Program-made: the position numbers and the translations under genes | Assembly (NCBI GenBank): GCA_030529365.1 | Contig: JAUMXB010000020.1 | Location: 1 to 41,242, forward strand | DNA length: 41,242 bases | Direction of reading: 5' to 3' | Source: Cardiobacteriaceae bacterium | GTDB lineage: Bacteria; Pseudomonadota; Gammaproteobacteria; Cardiobacteriales; Cardiobacteriaceae | Part shown: positions 1 through 29,735 of the stretch, piece after piece | Layout of the letters: each line of letters begins with the position of its first letter | Numbering within the stretch: the stretch's first letter is position 1 | The notes under the pieces: model-generated | Told to the model about the DNA's origin: nothing | The model's database searches: none | What the model saw: only the letters and a program-made list of their open reading frames with translations

Positions 1-54
1 TCCTCTTGAAGTTGAGCAGGTATATTGTGCCAGTATATGCGGCGTTGGCTATAT

Positions 55-1423: not shown

Positions 1424-1541
1424 CGGCAAGTGGGCAAATGATGTTTGCCGAAACGGACAGCTTCACCGTCGCCTGGGAAAAGCACAATAATAAAAGCGTG
1501 AATAATGGATTAAATTTCTGGTAACAGAGGTGAAAAGTTGC

Positions 1542-1557
1542 TGGCCTGCTTTTTGCT
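1542..1557 (+). promoter_or_regulatory. Candidate sigma-54 (-24/-12) promoter for pilY1 operon
   Basis: The sequence TGGCCTGCTTTTTGCT has GG at 1543-1544 and GC at 1555-1556 with exactly 10 nt between, and matches TGGCACG-N4-TTGCW except at two positions. Transcription would start near 1568, giving a leader of about 60 nt before pilY1. An A+T-rich stretch at 1485-1540 could hold activator or IHF sites. Sigma-54 with PilR controls major pilin genes in Pseudomonas and in Dichelobacter; its use here is inferred. The rest of the 1424-1626 gap holds a small inverted repeat (GGCAAA-TGATG-TTTGCC) just after pncA. Confidence 0.6.
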
Positions 1558-1626
1558 TTGAATTGACTACTGCCCCCGTCCGGCATGCGCTGGATATGGC
1601 AACCTGTTGATAAAAGGAGAAATAAA

Positions 1627-4600
1627 ATGAATGACAACCTTGCAAGAAAAACATGCCTGCGCCCGCTGTTGCTAGCCTCGGCAGTCGGCATGGCTTGCCA
1701 AAATGTTATGGCGCAATCCGTTTCGGAGCTGAGCGCCACTCCTTTTGCCACTCGGCCATTGCATCTGCAAAGCGATACCAGTATCTCCGAAGTTCAGGGA
1801 GTTAATCCCAATGTGATGTTTTTTGTGGATGATTCGGGAAGTATGCAGGCATTGGTTGGAAAAAAGACATATTGGGATAAGGAGTTTGTTGATTATTACC
1901 CTAACCTTTCGAGGGCAAAGTGTATTTATGAAACAAAACCTAAAAATATACCTTATGATTGCGCCAGATATATAGATAGAAAAGGGAATTATGGGTATGT
2001 AAGTTATAGGTATAAAGATAACCCCTATAACGATCCAGAAATGCACCGGGCAGGCGGAAGATTAATTACGGAAGGCGAATTTTGGATGCGGCAAATAATA
2101 GGGCAAAATTACGCTAATCCGTTTCCATGTGATTTTAGTTCTTCTGATTTGGGAACCAGTAACGGCTGTTATTATACGAACTGGCCATTGACAGGTTTTT
2201 TCCGTTTTAAACAGCAGGAAAGTCGTATTAAGGTTACCATTGATGCATTGACGGAAGTGGTCAATAAAAACAAGGATAAATGGAATTGGAATATTTATAC
2301 TTTGTGGGGTTCCGAAACGCGCGCTGACAGAAAAGGAAATACTCGGAGGAATGATCAAAGCTTGTATTCATGGTGGCCAACCCGGCATAAATTCATGAAA
2401 GCTGACCAGATGAAAAATCTGGTGAAGGCGCTTTCACCAACAGGTGGTACGCCGACGACAGAGCGCTATGTTCAAGTGGCGAGAATTATGAAAGACAGTA
2501 TTGAGTATCGCTGTCAGAATAGTTATATCATAGTGGTTTCGGATGGGGATGCGAATCAGTTGGGAATTCCAAGTACTGCTACAAGAATTGCTGAAAATGA
2601 ATATAGTTGGGAGTCAAATTTTGAGCCATGGGAAGAAAAACTTTATGGTGTATTCTCGGATAGAATAAATATTGATGGCTGGCGAGATAAAAAAGATAAG
2701 GACGGTAAGGAAATAGCAGATGAGAATAAATATGAGAATTGGATTAGGAGCATTAAAGAAGAAAAAATCCGATATTATCCTTATCGGCCTGGTGCAGAGA
2801 ATGGCATAAGCCTGTTTAGCCATATTTTGCTAAATACGGACTTGAAAGGAAAAGCAGATAGTGTCCCCGGAGGGAAATATGGAGCAGGGCGCGATAAAGA
2901 AGGGGGGTATTGGGATGAAGATCGTACACATTCAGATCGCCGTTATCACAATACTAGACATGGACAACAAAATATCCAAACATTTACGATAGGCTTCGGT
3001 GAAGGTCTGAGTTCTACAGGAAAAGGATATCTGGAGGATGCGGCGACATGCAAAGAACCGAAAGAAAACAAGTGCTTCTTTACGCCTACGACAGGATCAG
3101 AACTTGCCGAAGCGCTGGATATTATCAATAGAACAATTGAAGCAGAGAATACTCCGGGAACAGGCGCGACTTTTTCCGCTTCAACTCCGGCTGTAACCGG
3201 ATCTACGATTGCTGATCTGGCGGCAACACTGACGCTGGATACCGGTATCTGGAGCAGTCAGTTGCTGTTCGCCAAGTTCCACGAGGGTAAGCTGACCAAA
3301 GATACCCAGGCGGCCAAATATAAAAATCGCAAGGTTCTGGTGAACAATGGCGTGGATGCGCCTTATTGGTTGAATCCCGGTACGCCTGCAAGCAGAAAAG
3401 CGGATTTTGGCATCGCCAATGATGATGAATTTACTCGTGGCTTCGTGCCGTGGTTGATTCGTCATCCGAGTGTTAATGATACTGCGATAGAAAAGCAAGT
3501 AGAAGCCAGCGTAGCAAAAGAAAACCGTACTGTAAGCGTATATCGCTCCAGGGACGCGGAAGCGAATGGTCCTGCAAGGCAAATGGCTGACGTGGTGGGA
3601 ACGCCGGTTGTTGCCATGGGGAGAGTCAGTGCTGATGATAAAAAACAAAAATACGTCATCACAGCGGCCAATGACGGCATGGTCTATATCTTTGCTCACG
3701 ACCCTAAAGGAGGGTATGACCTTACCTTGAATTATTTGCCAGCAGGCATGCAGCGCGAAAGCTGGTTGCCGCCAAATGATCCGGCTTCTGTCACGGTTGG
3801 CAAGACTATTCGTGTGACAGCCGAGGCCAATTATGGCAAAAATGATTTGACCAACCCGCACGTGTATTTGAATAACGGCAGTCTTTCTTGGGTGCGAACG
3901 CCAAAAACGGGAGGCAGGAACCAGCAGGATATTTTGCTGGGTACGATGGGGCAAGGTGGCCGTGGTGTCTATGCCTTGGCTATCGCCGGTAAGAAACGCG
4001 CAAGCGGGGCGGATACAGCAGCAGGTCTGGATACGTCATATGAGAATTGGCCTGCGGAAATACCACTTTGGGAAACCGATAAGAGCAAAGACAACATGCT
4101 GGGTTATACCATCAGCACAGGGGTGGTCGGACAGGTTGCCACGCAGTGGAAGTCGGACGGCGCAACGGCTGGCAATCCTGGTACTCCAGACGTGAATGAG
4201 GGTGTGCACCTTTATGCTTTCGTTGCCAACGGCTACAAGTCAGACAATGCAGATGTGCCTTATGATGACTCGCCTACTTTGTATGTATATGACATGATGG
4301 GGCAGGAATTTGGACGCAAGATCAATAAAGATTCCAGATCCGTTGCCAATGGCAATACGCCAGGCAAACTCATCAAAAAAATTCCTGTTGGCGGCGCGGA
4401 GGGGGCTTTGGCAACGCCTACGCTGGTAGATGCCAACCTTGATGGCCTGGTTGATTTTGCCTATGCCGGTGATCAGCATGGTGATCTGTACCGTTTTGAT
4501 TTGCGTGGCGCGCCAGGGCAATGGAAGGTAGCCAAGCTTTATGATGGCCGCTCGAGTCAGCCCATTACAGCTGCGCCCGCAGTTTACAAGGTGGACAATA

Positions 4601-5604
4601 AGGGCGAGAAATACGTGGTCGTATTTGGGACGGGATCAGATATCTATGATGCGGATCGCAAGGATCGTGAGCAGCAAGTGATTATGGGCATTCATGATGA
4701 TTTGACCAAAGATCCAGAACTGGTCACGCATGATGATACCGACGCGATTGTTCATCAGGAGATGAAGGAGCAAATAAATCCGCTTTATGCAACCAATAAA
4801 AATCTTCCGGAGAAAATACGGGTCTTTTCCAAAGTGAATCCCTTTGAAGCCAAGCATCGCGCCTGGAGCATCAAGCTTGCTAAAGCACAAGGTGAGGGAG
4901 AAAATATCACAACATCGGAACGTGTGGTAACCAAACCACAAGTTCTTACTCGAACAGCATTTATTACTACCAGAATCTACGACTTCAAGAAAACGCAAGG
5001 TACGCTTCCGGAAGGGGTGAATCCCGAACAAACTTGCTTTAGCAAGATTTCGCAAACGCAGACAGGCGGTAACAGCTGGCAAATGGCCATTGATGTTTTA
5101 ACGGGCGGGGGGCCTCTTGCGGGATCCAATCCCAGTACAGCCAAGGGTGCGTATTTTGAATTTTCCGATATCAAAGTGAATGATGGTGCGGGAAGTGATT
5201 CCGGTGGTGGTTCGGGCAATAGCTCAGGAGCGGATCGCGTCGTGGCTGCTGGCTTCAGTTATGGCGCTCTCGCTTCTGCTCCTGCATTGGTGGACAGCAA
5301 TAGTGCATCTTCAGAAACATTCCAGACAAGTGCACAAGGAGAGCTTGGTTATCATGGCGAGATAGTAGGACCTTTCGGAAGCGATCCGGATGACTCGGAT
5401 GATGGGGAGGTGAAAGAGCGCAACCCTCTGCAAGATCTGAAAAAAGACTGTATTCCGAACAGATCCAGGCTGTCGTTGCTTGTCGCTACTGGTGGAGAAA
5501 ATACCGGCAGCGGGCATAACAACGTACAGACGGGATTGGTAGGTCCACCCTGTTTCGAAGCCGAAGGCTTGATCAGGATTGATTGGCGTCAGATCCCGCT
5601 TTGA
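1627..5604 (+). CDS. pilY1: PilY1-family type IV pilus tip adhesin/biogenesis factor
   Basis: A 1325-aa exported protein. Residues 1-30 form a signal peptide ending MAQS. A von Willebrand A-like region follows, with a MIDAS motif D68-x-S70-x-S72 (VDDSGSM). The C-terminal half (from about residue 550) is the PilC/PilY1 beta-propeller with an EF-hand-like calcium loop, D935-x-N-x-D939-G-x-x-D943, and ends in the family-typical RIDWRQIPL. PilY1 proteins prime the pilus tip, oppose retraction and mediate adhesion. A Gly/Ser-rich stretch sits near residues 1190-1200. The ATG at 1627 has an AGGAG site; the upstream ATG at 1585 would precede the signal peptide. The vWA part (about 1.8-3.1 kb) is visibly richer in A+T than the propeller part. 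It is first in the operon, 18 nt before pilV. Confidence 0.9.
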   Translation: MNDNLARKTCLRPLLLASAVGMACQNVMAQSVSELSATPFATRPLHLQSDTSISEVQGVNPNVMFFVDDSGSMQALVGKKTYWDKEFVDYYPNLSRAKCIYETKPKNIPYDCARYIDRKGNYGYVSYRYKDNPYNDPEMHRAGGRLITEGEFWMRQIIGQNYANPFPCDFSSSDLGTSNGCYYTNWPLTGFFRFKQQESRIKVTIDALTEVVNKNKDKWNWNIYTLWGSETRADRKGNTRRNDQSLYSWWPTRHKFMKADQMKNLVKALSPTGGTPTTERYVQVARIMKDSIEYRCQNSYIIVVSDGDANQLGIPSTATRIAENEYSWESNFEPWEEKLYGVFSDRINIDGWRDKKDKDGKEIADENKYENWIRSIKEEKIRYYPYRPGAENGISLFSHILLNTDLKGKADSVPGGKYGAGRDKEGGYWDEDRTHSDRRYHNTRHGQQNIQTFTIGFGEGLSSTGKGYLEDAATCKEPKENKCFFTPTTGSELAEALDIINRTIEAENTPGTGATFSASTPAVTGSTIADLAATLTLDTGIWSSQLLFAKFHEGKLTKDTQAAKYKNRKVLVNNGVDAPYWLNPGTPASRKADFGIANDDEFTRGFVPWLIRHPSVNDTAIEKQVEASVAKENRTVSVYRSRDAEANGPARQMADVVGTPVVAMGRVSADDKKQKYVITAANDGMVYIFAHDPKGGYDLTLNYLPAGMQRESWLPPNDPASVTVGKTIRVTAEANYGKNDLTNPHVYLNNGSLSWVRTPKTGGRNQQDILLGTMGQGGRGVYALAIAGKKRASGADTAAGLDTSYENWPAEIPLWETDKSKDNMLGYTISTGVVGQVATQWKSDGATAGNPGTPDVNEGVHLYAFVANGYKSDNADVPYDDSPTLYVYDMMGQEFGRKINKDSRSVANGNTPGKLIKKIPVGGAEGALATPTLVDANLDGLVDFAYAGDQHGDLYRFDLRGAPGQWKVAKLYDGRSSQPITAAPAVYKVDNKGEKYVVVFGTGSDIYDADRKDREQQVIMGIHDDLTKDPELVTHDDTDAIVHQEMKEQINPLYATNKNLPEKIRVFSKVNPFEAKHRAWSIKLAKAQGEGENITTSERVVTKPQVLTRTAFITTRIYDFKKTQGTLPEGVNPEQTCFSKISQTQTGGNSWQMAIDVLTGGGPLAGSNPSTAKGAYFEFSDIKVNDGAGSDSGGGSGNSSGADRVVAAGFSYGALASAPALVDSNSASSETFQTSAQGELGYHGEIVGPFGSDPDDSDDGEVKERNPLQDLKKDCIPNRSRLSLLVATGGENTGSGHNNVQTGLVGPPCFEAEGLIRIDWRQIPL

Positions 5605-5622: not shown

Positions 5623-6186
5623 ATGAATATTAAGCGCAATAAAAACGTGGCAGGAACAGTTTCCTGCCGTATTCACCAAAAAGGCATGACCTTGCTGGAG
5701 GTGGTAGTGTCCATGCTGGTTATTGGCTTGGGACTGGCAATGAGCATTTCGATGATTCAGACGGCGAACCGGTTTGGTAATAGCGCGGAGTTCAGCCATT
5801 CAGCATTGGAGCAGGCACAGGCGATTATTGACAAAATTCGCGCAAATCGCGTTGCTGCACCTACGTATCGATATCCGGCTACGGAAGTGATCGGTAGCTA
5901 TGATGCTATTTATGAGAGTGCTAAAGCCGCTGATATTGGGAAATTGAAAATATCTTGTACTTTGCCTGGTATTGATAGTAGCGATTGCGACAAGGCAGGA
6001 AAAATCGCTCAAACAGATATGCAGGCGTGGGATGAAAATACTCGTGCATTGCTCCCTGGAGGAAGAGGAGCTGTTGTCATTAATGGAATGAACTCTGAAG
6101 TGATTGTCATGTGGAAAAACAATCCAGAAACAGATAGTAATGACAATCCTGATGTACAGGGTATCAGAGTACGTTTTGCTTTATAA
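5623..6186 (+). CDS. pilV: Minor prepilin PilV
   Basis: A 187-aa type IV prepilin. A 21-residue basic leader ends in HQKG, followed by MTLLEVVVSMLVIGLG: cleavage by PilD would fall after G21, leaving Met +1 and the conserved Glu +5. The hydrophobic helix spans about residues 22-45 and the rest is a periplasmic or pilus-exposed head. PilV belongs to the minor-pilin complex that primes pilus assembly with PilY1. The start at 5623 follows GGGGAAG. The gene sits between pilY1 and pilW (10-nt gap), which supports the assignment over a generic GspI-like pseudopilin. Confidence 0.85.
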   Translation: MNIKRNKNVAGTVSCRIHQKGMTLLEVVVSMLVIGLGLAMSISMIQTANRFGNSAEFSHSALEQAQAIIDKIRANRVAAPTYRYPATEVIGSYDAIYESAKAADIGKLKISCTLPGIDSSDCDKAGKIAQTDMQAWDENTRALLPGGRGAVVINGMNSEVIVMWKNNPETDSNDNPDVQGIRVRFAL

Positions 6187-6196
6187 GGAAATTGAT

Positions 6197-7336
6197 ATGT
6201 ATCGCAATAAGCAAAAACAGCAAGGCGGTCTCTCTCTTTTGGAGCTTTTGGTCTCTTTGTCTATAGGTTTGATATTGTTGTTGGCATTGGCCTCACTGAT
6301 GATCACGGCCAATAGATCGGCACAACAAAGAAGCACATCGGAAGCGATGGATGAACAGGCTAGGCAGGTTTTTTCTCTCCTGGAAACGGATCTTTATCGA
6401 GCGGGTTTTTTGGATCCCTTCACGGATGAGCAAACGATTCTTTCCGTATTCAATCTGAATAATGTGCAAACGTTGGCCGGATATACGCGTCAAGCCGAAA
6501 ACATTAATGATCCCGCACGCGCTACTCCGTTAGGGCGGCGTACAGAAGGACGCATATTGCCTTTGCAAGGATTTGACGGTACAGCGAGTGCTCCCGCTCC
6601 AGCCGGGATGACATGTACTGCCGAACGTCAATGTATACAAGTTGCTTATCAGGCAGTGGCTTTCCAGCAAGCAATTCCAGGTTCTGGAGCTGGAAGTAGT
6701 ACTACTCCGGCGCCAGTGGCGAGTTTCTCTTCTGTGGCTAGCATAGCCCAGGAAGAGGGATCATTATCAGGCGCCGCGCTGGGATGTAATGGGGTGCAAG
6801 CCAAACATACGCACCCGATCATTGTTAACCAATATCAGGTAGGTATCGCAACAGGGGAAAAATATAGCAGCCTGCGCTGTGATAGCAGTAGCAGGAATTT
6901 TAAAAATGAGGACGGTGGTGGAAAAGATGCCGCACAACCTGTGGTATCCGGAGTGGAACAGCTGACTTTCCGATATTTGGTTACGCCGCCGGATAATACG
7001 GGGAAAGACGAAAGAGTTGACCTAAGTAAAACTATCAGTGGTCGCAGTGTTACTGGATTGAAAACGGCCGGTGAAGTCGCAACGGTTGATGCGACAAGTA
7101 ATCCATTGCGGTGGGCCGCTGTAGTAGGGGTTGAAATTTGTACGGTTGTTGCCGCACAGCCGGCAGATGGCAGCAAGGAGATTGATATTCCAACGGTACA
7201 ACCTAATGTTCCGACATGTATTAAAGATGATAAGGGTGTCTGGACCGAAAAAAAACGCACAGATGGGGATACAAGGGTGCACAGACGTTATGTTCGTACA
7301 ATAAATTTGCCCAATGCTCTTCATTTGACAAATTGA
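6197..7336 (+). CDS. pilW: Minor prepilin PilW
   Basis: A 379-aa large minor prepilin. The leader MYRNKQKQQGG precedes LSLLELLVSLSIGLILLL: cleavage would fall after the second glycine, with Glu at +5. The long C-terminal head has several cysteines (for example in MTCTAERQC and LGCNG) that could form disulfides. PilW links PilV/PilX to the tip complex in Pseudomonas. The ATG at 6197 has an AAGGAA site; the upstream ATG at 6104 lies inside pilV and would put 31 extra residues before the prepilin leader. It is followed at 10 nt by pilX. Confidence 0.87.
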   Translation: MYRNKQKQQGGLSLLELLVSLSIGLILLLALASLMITANRSAQQRSTSEAMDEQARQVFSLLETDLYRAGFLDPFTDEQTILSVFNLNNVQTLAGYTRQAENINDPARATPLGRRTEGRILPLQGFDGTASAPAPAGMTCTAERQCIQVAYQAVAFQQAIPGSGAGSSTTPAPVASFSSVASIAQEEGSLSGAALGCNGVQAKHTHPIIVNQYQVGIATGEKYSSLRCDSSSRNFKNEDGGGKDAAQPVVSGVEQLTFRYLVTPPDNTGKDERVDLSKTISGRSVTGLKTAGEVATVDATSNPLRWAAVVGVEICTVVAAQPADGSKEIDIPTVQPNVPTCIKDDKGVWTEKKRTDGDTRVHRRYVRTINLPNALHLTN

Positions 7337-7346
7337 GGAAATGGAT

Positions 7347-8126
7347 ATGAACAAGATGATTGATAAAAATGCCATCGCCCAAAAAGAGCAGGGAGTGGTG
7401 TTATTGACCACACTGATTTTTATGTTGATATTGCTGGCAATGTTGCGTTTTACTTTGACGAGTGCGCGCGTTGAAGAACAAAAGGCGGCTATTGATCTTG
7501 ATATGGTTTCTGCACGGGAAGGCGCGCAAATGGCTCTTGATTATGTAGAGCAATACGTTCTCGAACAGGGAGAATTATATTGCATAAAGAATCTGGGTAA
7601 AAATAGTGCAGAGTGTAAGGAGAGTCGGGCGAGATACGCGGGAGAACTTTTCGCTTTGCCGCAAACAGAGTTGTCGAAAATTAGAAATAAAAAAGATGGA
7701 TATAAAACCGTTGGTGAAGTACTCAATAAAGGTTTATATACGGGAGAGTTTATTGCTGCTCAAGCAAGTTGCCAGCCTTTCTGGACTTGCATCAATTGGC
7801 CCGTGGATGCACATGCTGTCCGCAATTCGGCTAGACAAATCGGCGGTGCTAACAGAATAAACGAGGCACTTGTCCCCATGGAGTGCGATATTTGTGCGAC
7901 AGGTGAAAATAATAATGTCAGCCCACGTTTTGTTATTGAGCGCCTGACGGCAGAAGAACTTAGAGCGGTGGCGCCTAATTTTGCTGATAGCGCTCCTGGC
8001 ATTGTTATTCTGCGCGTAACAGCAGTCGGATTCGGGAAAGGAAAAAAGCCCGAAAAAGATGCAAAAGTTGGCAATCTTAATTTAAGCAATGTTATGCTGC
8101 AAAGCACATACATACTTGGAGGATGA
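7347..8126 (+). CDS. pilX: Minor prepilin PilX
   Basis: A 259-aa protein with a PilX-type N-terminus: a short polar leader ending KEQG, then VVLLTTLIFMLILLAML. Glu +5 is absent (threonine), which is usual for PilX and GspK-like pilins thought to sit at the very tip. The helix is followed by a polar head with four cysteines clustered in its middle. Of two close ATGs (7341 and 7347), 7347 has the better spacing from GAGG at 7335-7338. Its stop overlaps the Shine-Dalgarno region of the next gene, so translational coupling is likely. Confidence 0.85.
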   Translation: MNKMIDKNAIAQKEQGVVLLTTLIFMLILLAMLRFTLTSARVEEQKAAIDLDMVSAREGAQMALDYVEQYVLEQGELYCIKNLGKNSAECKESRARYAGELFALPQTELSKIRNKKDGYKTVGEVLNKGLYTGEFIAAQASCQPFWTCINWPVDAHAVRNSARQIGGANRINEALVPMECDICATGENNNVSPRFVIERLTAEELRAVAPNFADSAPGIVILRVTAVGFGKGKKPEKDAKVGNLNLSNVMLQSTYILGG

Positions 8127-8131
8127 TATTG

Positions 8132-8728
8132 ATGAAAAAGGAATTTTTAAAAGGAAAAGGCTTTACTTTACTGGAGATGATGGTGGCTATTGCCATACTG
8201 GCAATACTGGTTGCCATGGCCGCTCCCGCTTATCGCGGTATGCTAGAAAGGCAAAAAATACGTTCGGCACTGAATGAATGGCAAAGTGCTTTCTTTTTTG
8301 CACGGCGGGAAGCCATGCGCTTAAAAGAGCCAGTTATTTTATGTGCCAGCAAAACAGGAACAAAATGCGATGATAAGCCGGGCAGGCAATTCAATCAGGG
8401 GTGGATAGTGATCGCTCGAAATGGTGACTCCGGGAAAGGAGGGATATTGTTGCAAGATTATGCAGTGAATGATCCAGGACTTAGTATTTATTTGAGCAAT
8501 GGTAATAATGCTAGCAATGGACTCATTTTTAGAGGAAATGGCAGTGTTGCGATTAGGGATGATCAGGGGAATATAGCAAAAGGAATTTTTATGGGAAGAG
8601 TAAGTATTGGCTCTTTGCCTTCTGGTACTCAAGAAGAAGATGCGGCAACGACTCCTCCTTCAGGAAGTAATACTATTATTATGAAGATCAGCAGCGGCGG
8701 CAGATTGGCACTAGGAGAGAAAAAATGA
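8132..8728 (+). CDS. fimT: FimT/FimU (GspH-like) minor prepilin
   Basis: A 198-aa prepilin. The leader [10 protein letters not shown] is cut before [24 protein letters not shown], with Phe +1 and Glu +5, as in FimT, FimU and GspH. It has a single small cysteine pair ([10 protein letters not shown]). FimU-type pilins belong to the minor-pilin initiation complex; FimT in some bacteria binds DNA during uptake, so a role in competence is possible but not shown. The ATG at 8132 is 9 nt after GGAGG (8118-8122); the ATG at 8123 abuts that site and is less likely. Its end overlaps pilE by 4 nt (ATGA). Confidence 0.83.
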
Positions 8729-9228
8729 GAAAGAGGATGGTAAAAAAACAAAAAGGCTTTACGTTGATCGAGCTTATGATTGCTGTTGCAATTGTAGCAA
8801 TTCTTGCGGCTATTGCAATTCCTACTTATCAACGTTATGTATTGCGTAGCCATCGTGTCGAGGTGCGCAATACTTTGCAGACCATCGCGCAGCGTATTGA
8901 ACAGAACTATAAAGTAACGCGGCAATGGAATGTGCTGGCGACCGCAACAGGAACACCGGCGAGTACAGCTTTGAATACAGAGGCAATTAAGGCTTGGGGA
9001 CTGAATCAATCACCGCTGGGCGGCACTGCCCGCTATACGATTGCTGTAGTGAATGCAGATGCAAATGGCTATTTGCTGAAGGCAACGGCGGTCGGCGCAC
9101 AAACGGCTGATCGTTGTGGAGCGTTTTTCTTGAATCAAAGTGGTATCAAAATGGCAACACCCAATCCAAATGATAAAGTTCCAACAAATGGACGAGATGA
9201 TCGATCGCGTGAATGTTGGACAAGATAA
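8725..9228 (+). CDS. pilE: PilE-type (minor) type IV pilin
   Basis: A 167-aa prepilin. The leader [11 protein letters not shown] precedes [28 protein letters not shown], a textbook class IVa N-terminus with Glu +5. The C-terminus has two cysteines ([12 protein letters not shown] and ECWTR) that would close the D-region loop. By position it corresponds to Pseudomonas PilE or Neisseria PilX/ComP-like minor pilins; a major pilin cannot be excluded from sequence alone, but the weak operon-distal position argues for minor. AGGAGA lies 6 nt before the ATG at 8725. A second ATG at 8737 is possible. It is the last gene of the operon, followed by a terminator. Confidence 0.85.
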
Positions 9229-13034: not shown

Positions 13035-13125
13035 TGTGATAGTGTTTTTTTACCACCAGCAAGCGCTTATGGTGAGAAAATTTCTCATGATAAGCGCTTA
13101 TTTGTGGTAAAAAGTTACTATTTTT
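13035..13125. repeat. Intergenic palindromic array element, copy 2 (tails at both ends)
   Basis: AAGCGCTT lies at 13061-13068 and 13092-13099. The 15-bp boxes start at 13041, 13073 and 13105, exactly 32 bp apart. The central box is TGAGAAAATTTCTCA. Both ends carry the tail: GTGGTAAAAAGTTACTATTTTT-like at 13104-13125, and its inverted form at 13035-13056, so this copy shows the full symmetric structure with terminal inverted repeats. It lies between the recN stop and the opgG start, both on the minus strand. Confidence 0.92.
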
Positions 13126-13153
13126 GCAGGTTTTTTGTTTTGCAAAAAAACCG

Positions 13154-16901: not shown

Positions 16902-16986
16902 CAAAATAGATATTTTTTATCATTGATAAGCGCTTATGATGATAAATTTTCTCACAAAAAGCGCTTTATTGTGAGAAATTTTCTCA
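16902..16986. repeat. Intergenic palindromic array element, copy 3
   Basis: AAGCGCTT lies at 16928-16935 and 16959-16966. The 15-bp boxes start at 16908, 16940 and 16972. The tail is in inverse orientation at 16902-16923 (reverse complement ATGATAAAAAATATCTATTT), pointing at the yhfA start. At the other end the box TGAGAAATTTTCTCA ends at 16986, directly against the TAA stop (16987-16989) of the next minus-strand gene. Confidence 0.92.
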
Positions 16987-18222
16987 TTACGGGGTTTCGC
17001 CGTCTTCCGTATAGCGTACCGCTTCGCCAGCGCTGCTGGCAAAGAGGTTTTCGCCATTGACGCCGCGTATCAGCCAGCCGTTCTCCACCGCTTCGCCATG
17101 AAACTCGCCTTCGCTGTCGGCAAATTCGTAGCGGTAGGTGGCGCTTTGGTAGTCGTCGGCATGGGCGGTTTCGCGGTAGTGGCCGCGTTTTTCTTGCAGC
17201 AGCTTGCCGCTTTCATCAAAGACGCGGTAGGCGATTTTCCAGTCGGGCGAGAGGTAGAGGCTGTGGCGTTTGCCGTCTTGCGCCTGGTGGTGGTATTCGC
17301 CGCCCAGCAGGATGTAGGCAAGCTCGATTTCCCGCTCCTGCAACTGGCCGTCCACAGCGTAGATGTTCATGTAGCTGGCGCTGCGGTGGGCGAAATGGTG
17401 GATGTCGTGTTGCAGGATGCCGCTGCTTTGCCAGTCGTTGTTGCGGATGGCGTTGAAGAGGTCGAGAATTTCCAGATCGTGGTTGGCGTTGATGATGCAG
17501 AGCACGGGGTTGCTGTCCTGGCCGATGTCGCTGATGTAGAGCAATTTTGCGGGCGCGGCAAGCCCCTGGACGGTGTGCTGGCGCTGCTTGATGAGGCTGG
17601 TATCGAGGTAATTGGAGAGGCCGGGAAAGCCGGGGTCGATGTCGATGATCACCTCGCCATTGTCCACGCGGGCGGTGATGCCGATGAAGCTGTCGGCCTG
17701 CGGCACGGGCGTGGCGAGGTCGGCGAGGGAGAGGTCGGTGGGGGTCAGGCCTTCCTGGATGTGGTCAATGACGATTTCGCGTCTGCCATCTTCGCTTGCC
17801 TGCGGGACGTAGTGCAGGGTTTCGCCGTCCGGCCTTTTGACGATGAGGAGGGTATTGAGCTGTTCCGGCTGGTTGATGCGCAGCAGCATGGATGCGCCTT
17901 TGGCGTGATGGAGCTCTTTGCCGATGCCGTCTTCTTTGTCGTAGTCGTAGTGGTGGACGCGGATGTCGATGTCGTCGCTCGCGGGGATGACGAGATAGAC
18001 TTCTTCGCCGCGATCGATATCGAAGGCGGTGACGTCTTCAAGGCCAGGATAATACTGGATAAAGCGCGGATAATCGGGGTCGGCGCGCAGGGCGGCGATG
18101 TCGGCATGGTTGCCGAGATAGGCGATGCCGACGATGTCTTCTTCCATCCATTCGTGAACGGTGCCGACGGCAAGCGCTTGTCCGGCAAGGAGCAGGGCGA
18201 TAAGGGCGGAGAGGCGTTTCAT
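16987..18222 (-). CDS. Uncharacterised exported protein A
   Basis: A 411-aa protein of unknown function. The N-terminus MKRLSALIALLLAGQALA is a Sec signal peptide with AQALA-type cleavage. The mature part is acidic and polar, with no membrane segment and a single cysteine (VLCIINANHDLE). It is rich in Asp, His and Tyr, and the C-terminal part has several short beta-strand-like stretches ending in ENGWLIRGVNGENLFA. I recognise no domain. The ATG at 18222 has AGGAA eight nt upstream; the open frame continues to 18495 but lacks a signal before this Met. It is last of three consecutive minus-strand genes for exported or membrane proteins (gaps 80 and 27 nt), so co-expression is likely. Confidence 0.72.
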   Translation of the reverse strand: MKRLSALIALLLAGQALAVGTVHEWMEEDIVGIAYLGNHADIAALRADPDYPRFIQYYPGLEDVTAFDIDRGEEVYLVIPASDDIDIRVHHYDYDKEDGIGKELHHAKGASMLLRINQPEQLNTLLIVKRPDGETLHYVPQASEDGRREIVIDHIQEGLTPTDLSLADLATPVPQADSFIGITARVDNGEVIIDIDPGFPGLSNYLDTSLIKQRQHTVQGLAAPAKLLYISDIGQDSNPVLCIINANHDLEILDLFNAIRNNDWQSSGILQHDIHHFAHRSASYMNIYAVDGQLQEREIELAYILLGGEYHHQAQDGKRHSLYLSPDWKIAYRVFDESGKLLQEKRGHYRETAHADDYQSATYRYEFADSEGEFHGEAVENGWLIRGVNGENLFASSAGEAVRYTEDGETP

Positions 18223-21965: not shown

Positions 21966-22050
21966 TGAGAAATTTTCTCATCAATAAGCGCTTGAAATGA
22001 GAAATTTTCGCATAATAAGCGCTTATTGATGGTAAAAAATAACTATTTTT
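21966..22050. repeat. Intergenic palindromic array element, copy 5
   Basis: The 15-bp boxes start at 21966, 21998 and 22030. AAGCGCTT lies at 21986-21993 and 22017-22024. The arms CATCAATAAGCGCTT and AAGCGCTTATTGATG are perfect complements over 15 bp, so a transcript could fold into a long hairpin centred on the middle box. The tail GGTAAAAAATAACTATTTTT ends at 22050, nine nt before the cmoM start codon. This copy is the best example of the whole-element palindrome. Confidence 0.94.
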
Positions 22051-26050: not shown

Positions 26051-26135
26051 TGGTAAAATTTCTCATTATTAAGCGCTTGGTATGAGAAATTTTCTCGCAT
26101 TAAGCGCTTATAAATGGTAAAAAATTACTATTTTT
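26051..26135. repeat. Intergenic palindromic array element, copy 6
   Basis: The 15-bp boxes start at 26051, 26083 and 26115. AAGCGCTT lies at 26071-26078 and 26102-26109. The tail GGTAAAAAATTACTATTTTT ends at 26135 and points toward ilvB. It lies between the terminator at 26014-26041 and the ilvB leader. Confidence 0.93.
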
Positions 26136-28616: not shown

Positions 28617-28701
28617 TGGTAAATTTTCTCATCAGCAAGCGCTTGTGGTGCAAAAATTTCTCACTATAAGCGCTTTAGGATGGTAAAAAATCACTATTTT
28701 T
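28617..28701. repeat. Intergenic palindromic array element, copy 7
   Basis: The 15-bp boxes start at 28617, 28649 and 28681. AAGCGCTT lies at 28637-28644 and 28668-28675. The tail GGTAAAAAATCACTATTTTT ends at 28701, 20 nt before the ilvC start and directly ahead of its ribosome site. Confidence 0.93.
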
Positions 28702-28703
28702 AA

Positions 28704-29735
<1,032 letters not shown>

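Follow-up and report, generated by a model that had tools for sequence, protein, structure and literature searches.

A predicted sigma-54 promoter at the head of the pilY1 tip operon in Cardiobacteriaceae

The tip genes and the site in front of them

Near its start, the window (the whole stretch of 41,242 nucleotides analysed here, from a Cardiobacteriaceae genome) carries a pilY1-type tip adhesin gene followed by a run of minor pilin genes, and a putative sigma-54 promoter lies ahead of them. Transcription from -24/-12 promoters starts about 12 nt past the -12 GC. The features are:

1542..1557, + strand: predicted sigma-54 promoter TGGCCTGCTTTTTGCT, with the -24 GG at 1543-1544, the -12 GC at 1555-1556 and N10 between them
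1567..1568, + strand: expected transcription start, about 12 nt past the -12 GC, placed from geometry alone
1615..1620, + strand: AGGAGA, likely ribosome-binding site of pilY1 (direct reading)
1627..5604, + strand: gene for a pilY1/pilC-type tip adhesin of 1325 aa, opening the operon (PF05567 T4P_PilY1, 3.4e-39)
5623..6186, + strand: minor pilin gene, pilV by position (PF07963 N_methyl, 4.1e-6)
6104..7336, + strand: PilW-like minor pilin gene (PF16074 PilW, 1.6e-5, 25.3 bits, cut-off 26; N_methyl, 3.2e-5)
7341..8126, + strand: PilX-like minor pilin gene (PF13681 PilX, 3.4e-4, 21.4 bits, cut-off 27)
8123..8728, + strand: FimU/GspH-like minor pilin gene (PF12019 GspH, 7.1e-7; N_methyl, 8.6e-9)
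8725..9228, + strand: PilE/ComP-like minor pilin gene, last in the run (PF16732 ComP_DUS, 2.3e-18)
50-110, 13057-13130, 16923-16990, 21981-22050, 26066-26130 and 28661-28720: palindrome arrays

The gaps between the six genes pilY1-pilV-pilW-pilX-fimU-pilE are short or negative, and they therefore likely form one operon. Note that the names pilV, pilW, pilX, fimU and pilE/ComP were given partly by gene order, and that 6104 is the longest-ORF start of the PilW-like gene, the real start of which is probably further downstream. For pilY1, the longest possible ORF begins at 1585 according to the ORF list; its product also matches the model NF040838 (T4_PilC_Neiss) at 2.2e-62, with 211 bits and thus under the cut-off of 350. 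ComP_DUS is the family of the DNA-uptake-sequence receptor, and the neisserial uptake word GCCGTCTGAA occurs just twice in 234 kb of the genome.

The predicted promoter is situated in the 203-nt gap between the end (1423) of an upstream ORF, which belongs to the isochorismatase family, and the pilY1 ATG at 1627, at a distance of 69 nt from this ATG (direct reading). The exact GG-N10-GC spacing claimed in the original prediction could be confirmed, whereas the description of the match as near-perfect was overstated: compared with the sigma-54 consensus TGGCAC-N5-TTGCW, TGGCCTGCTTTTTGCT has 9 of 11 letters, and the two mismatches (A to C and C to T, both in the -24 box) make it a good match only. 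Beyond the GG/GC core, the agreement with the consensus can be regarded as moderate only. Indeed, a matrix trained on pilA sites ranked TGGCCTGCTTTTTGCT low, which counts against the promoter reading: it gave 6.2 bits, and 91 of the 82,454 positions in the window (TGGCCTGCTTTTTGCT counted) scored at least as high. The other pilY1 sites scored -2.1 to 12.9 bits. With a matrix built from the pilY1 sites of relatives, two of the 82,454 positions were at least as good as TGGCCTGCTTTTTGCT, and with both matrices together 11.

Such sites are not rare by chance. The exact pattern TGGC-N7-TTGCW was found three times in the window versus 1.87 expected (at least three in 30 of 100 shuffles), and sites with up to three mismatches to the full consensus were present 228 times versus 234 expected. 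The 2.3-Mb genome contains 100 exact core matches (24 for the reversed pattern), and an equally good site appeared in the 200 nt before pilY1 in 32 of 2000 dinucleotide shuffles. As the counts in window and genome are not significant, single-sequence statistics are weak evidence and do not serve as proof; the weight of the predicted promoter comes from its position and conservation, not from its sequence alone.

The 100 genomic core matches fall into 81 in called genes and 19 outside, one of the latter (L002) being inside a long synthetase-like ORF. Besides the site in the window, five of the 19 lie 36-98 nt upstream of an ORF. Equally good sites thus stand ahead of a few other genes, whether by chance or because these are real targets. 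Named by reading, the genes behind these five sites are genes for a transporter ATPase (L026), a membrane transporter (L027), a repeat protein (L030) and a small protein (L263), and the gene at L237. The last is preceded at 42 nt before its ATG by TGGCGCGCGATTTGCT (G000, contig C14, 11049-11064, - strand) and encodes a trimeric autotransporter adhesin resembling YadA/Ata (family cut-offs missed by a wide margin; ORF cut by the end of the stretch), which is a possible further sigma-54 target.

The palindrome arrays in the window consist of alternating TAAGCGCTTA and TGAGAAATTTTCTCA-like elements, at several positions with a spacing of about 31 nt. In 234 kb of the genome, AAGCGCTT was counted 145 times and AAAATTTCTC 40 times, versus 3.6 and 0.4 expected for equal bases; none of the 13 relatives' loci that were examined, including four of the congener G007, contained AAAATTTCTC. 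Window positions 1-54 are repeated at the start of contig C3 (L038, 1-56), immediately ahead of the second pilin gene; the assembly seems to be broken at this repeat, which both contig starts have in common. Between the two pilin genes, amid CGTAGGGACGTAGCCTGCTACGTCC repeats, there is an ORF (L037, 296-841, - strand) that we take to resemble a REP-associated (Y1) transposase.

Occurrence of the site before pilY1 in relatives

The family set comprised 12 genomes, including Cardiobacterium hominis NCTC10426, C. valvarum NCTC13294 and Dichelobacter nodosus VPI 2340. A PilY1 match was present in 11 of them; G007, the only congener, gave neither a pilY1 match nor a DNA match, an empty result that carries no weight. 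The 200 nt before each pilY1 start were scored with a fixed weight scheme (maximum 32), the weights of which were set by us after the published consensus and fixed before the relatives were scanned. Taking a cut-off of 25, which was picked after the values were known, eight of the 11 genomes possess a site (28, 25, 29, 29, 27, 29, 26 and 25) lying 43-97 nt from the pilY1 start; in D. nodosus, pilY1 is preceded by TGGCATAAAATTTGCA. The genomes below the cut-off were G010 (22, a weak site), G005 (21) and G011 (20). In G011, the pilY1 match is broken over frames with stops and has no site. In G005, the pilins precede pilY1, and TGGCACATTTATTGCT (31/32) is found at the head of this run (the start of the first pilin being deduced from its leader), with nothing above 21 before pilY1. 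Thus, a site is present at the operon head in nine of 11 family genomes, i.e. in eight before pilY1 and in G005 at the rearranged head. A dinucleotide-shuffle test combining all 11 genomes, misses included, gave p 3.4e-7; note that this value ignores kinship, the 11 genomes being related and not 11 independent cases.

The corresponding regions before pilM, pilB, pilT and pilR served as controls, and one of 45 reached 25, with the reservation that pilY1 starts were chosen by eye and control starts by a mechanical rule and that some control regions are probably coding. This single case was AGGCAGAGTCCGTGCA, 97 nt before the ATG of the window's own pilB. The first control set (n=42; pilM 12, pilB 9, pilT 11, pilR 10) differed from the pilY1 regions with p 2.5e-4 (Mann-Whitney); the three controls added to it (pilR of G009 and G010, split pilB of G011) scored 22, 20 and 20. 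When nine upstream regions were aligned, the flanks showed little similarity (mean column identity 40%), yet the TGGC block was aligned in six of nine rows, with D. nodosus, G006 and G009 out of register. Genomes G009 and G010 contain many PilY1-like loci (24 matched segments each), and the pilY1-like loci L147 and L161 of a rumen Cardiobacteriaceae MAG scored just 23 and 21.

For the comparison beyond the family, the best 80 of 157 protein-scan matches were used, which corresponded to 78 loci, 74 of which were entered and 64 were usable in upstream scoring (L154 and L204 were left out). Among Neisseriaceae pilC/pilY1 genes, one of 18 had a site of at least 25, further scores of 25 being located inside the gene (L143, L151) in a scan reaching further into the ORF. 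In other lineages, six of 42 scored loci had at least 25 (10 of 52 were dropped at edges). Such sites are therefore not confined to Cardiobacteriaceae. The best outgroup site, TGGCACCTCTCTTGCA (31/32), heads a Desulfobacterales pilY1 (L203, 3315-3330) and may reflect a separate origin of sigma-54 control at this gene. Note also that the automatic operon-head rule gave 19 for the G002-type locus L141, the site of which is visible in other scans.

RpoN, PilR and the proposed control of shaft and tip genes

The genome encodes RpoN (468 aa; PF04552, 2.3e-61; TIGR02395, 405 bits versus a cut-off of 277). A search with PF00158 gave four matches: PilR, an NtrX-like protein, ClpB and ClpA. PilR has a GSFTGA loop, shares 59% identity with the corresponding protein in D. 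nodosus and is encoded directly downstream of a histidine-kinase ORF. No NCBIfam model above cut-off names it PilR, and we use this name on the assumption that the kinase pairing and the D. nodosus literature justify it. As the other PF00158 matches are an NtrX-like protein without a GAFTGA-type loop and two Clp ATPases, PilR appears to be the only evident sigma-54 activator with a contact loop in this genome (96.6% complete). In D. nodosus, the same two PF00158 matches only (PilR and the NtrX-like protein) were obtained at E <=1e-15.

The same type of site, which the original prediction proposed to look for ahead of the major pilin gene, is present at both pilin genes of this genome: pilA is preceded by TGGCACGCGCAAGGCA and the second pilin gene by TGGTACTCTACACGCA, both GG-N10-GC. 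In fact, GG-N10-GC occurs 56-83 nt before a pilin-gene ATG in all 12 family genomes, and the best pilin site per genome has a score of 26-30 (of 32) in eleven of them and 24 in D. nodosus. In the scoring of 23 pilin genes, in which five starts were placed one codon before the ATG, seven genes were without a site at this distance, five of these being later genes of a cluster. In two of the seven, sites scoring 30 and 25 lie 161-168 nt from the start; these are probably chance sites within the preceding gene. The pilin distances of G003 and G004 were taken from this scoring, the mechanical ATG rule having picked the wrong ATG.

From this comparison we infer that 1542-1557 is probably the sigma-54 promoter of the pilY1 tip operon, activated by PilR jointly with the pilin genes. 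Sigma-54 control of the tip operon, as originally predicted, is thus supported comparatively, by RpoN, PilR, the sites at the pilin genes and the recurrence in the family versus one of 45 controls. If the promoter is used in this way, RpoN polymerase at 1542-1557 would start a single transcript of pilY1-pilV-pilW-pilX-fimU-pilE some 60 nt upstream of the pilY1 ATG, and would remain closed at the site until PilR phosphorylated by PilS remodels the complex. PilR would activate RpoN polymerase at pilA, at the second pilin gene and at the tip operon. The enhancer is the weak point of this scheme, since the half-sites attributed to PilR show no excess ahead of pilY1 (counts below). As the same promoter type is found at the major pilin gene and the neighbouring pilin gene, one sensor, PilS, may set shaft and tip subunits together, the two gene sets being co-regulated in the cell. 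In Pseudomonas, PilS interacts with PilA for pilin autoregulation.

It is unlikely that the promoter is a sigma-54 promoter served by another activator, or by PilR without a nearby bound enhancer. PilR half-sites, taken as TGTC/GACA, are not in excess before pilY1 (7 versus 8.0 expected; 19 versus 11.4 before pilA), and some relatives possess extra activators, namely RtcR (L126, C. hominis) and an NtrC-like protein (L123, G006); however, PilR is the only activator with a GAFTGA-type loop found in the window's genome and in D. nodosus.

We regard it as quite improbable that the operon depends on an RpoD (sigma-70) promoter or on read-through of the upstream gene, the sigma-54 match being a matter of chance or a relic. 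Exact core matches are common, as the 81 cases inside called genes illustrate, and the interval from the upstream gene to pilY1 yielded no terminator. Furthermore, a weak sigma-70-like match, TTCACC-18-AATAAT (1462..1491, + strand, 9/12), is the only one in 1380-1680, with 0.3 expected per shuffle. In N. elongata, the tested minor-pilin and pilC genes are RpoN-independent, with four mapped pilus loci at RpoD starts (PMC6528607). Against this stands the operon-head site in the great majority of the family genomes, nine of 11, versus one of 45 control regions.

Control by an AlgR-type (LytTR) protein or by Vfr, as described for the fimU operon of P. aeruginosa (PMC4064291, PMC8787478), is disfavoured in its AlgR part, since a LytTR match was obtained in none of the 12 family genomes but in five of 14 control genomes with the same search, and we consider it most improbable as a whole.

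Returning to PilR and RpoN at the tip operon, a wider scheme is conceivable, and we put it forward only tentatively: sigma-54 might be a near-dedicated pilus sigma factor in Cardiobacteriaceae, with PilSR setting shaft and tip as one module and the sensing of pilin by PilS fixing the minor-to-major pilin ratio, and the YadA-like adhesin (C14, L237) may share this regulon. The minor-to-major pilin ratio tunes pilus dynamics elsewhere.

Comparison with known pilus regulation

The arrangement resembles the PilS-PilR/sigma-54 control of the major pilin known from Pseudomonas, Dichelobacter and Kingella (Nps-Npa in N. elongata) in having RpoN, a PilR with GSFTGA and, in all 12 family genomes, GG-N10-GC before a pilin gene. 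D. nodosus, which has TGGCATAAAATTTGCA before its pilY1, belongs to the same family as the bacterium studied here; its fimA gene is under PilR and sigma-54, and its PilR/RpoN regulon has been the subject of an array study (Parker 2006). Surface-exposed proteins of D. nodosus are PilR-controlled as well, as stated in PMC6058289. A PilR/sigma-54 regulon has also been predicted for Geobacter sulfurreducens, a distant lineage.

Our literature search found no earlier report of sigma-54 at pilY1 in Cardiobacteriaceae, although one may exist. What we describe appears to be a family trait in which an already known promoter class and regulator serve a new target operon. In N. elongata, pilE alone among the tested pilus genes is under RpoN and its activator, the tested minor-pilin and pilC transcripts being unchanged in the mutants (PMC6528607); in Cardiobacteriaceae, in contrast, the tip operon would also be headed by that promoter type. 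A role of PilSR in keeping or adjusting the minor-to-major pilin ratio elsewhere has been put forward as a speculation (PMC13249403). Cardiobacteriaceae, in which one activator apparently drives both gene sets, would be a natural test of this idea.

The P. aeruginosa fimU-pilVWXY1Y2E operon, which AlgR and Vfr activate (PMC4064291, PMC8787478), likewise groups tip genes of a comparable kind in a single run. Expression of these genes was altered in pilA and pilR mutants, the role of PilR being judged indirect (PMC6058289). Unlike there, pilY1 is the first gene in the operon described here, the predicted promoter is of another type, and a LytTR protein was not found in the family, which supports the original view that the wiring differs from that with AlgR. 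The case also cautions against transferring the tip wiring of Pseudomonas (AlgR/Vfr) or Neisseria (RpoD) to Cardiobacterium and Dichelobacter.
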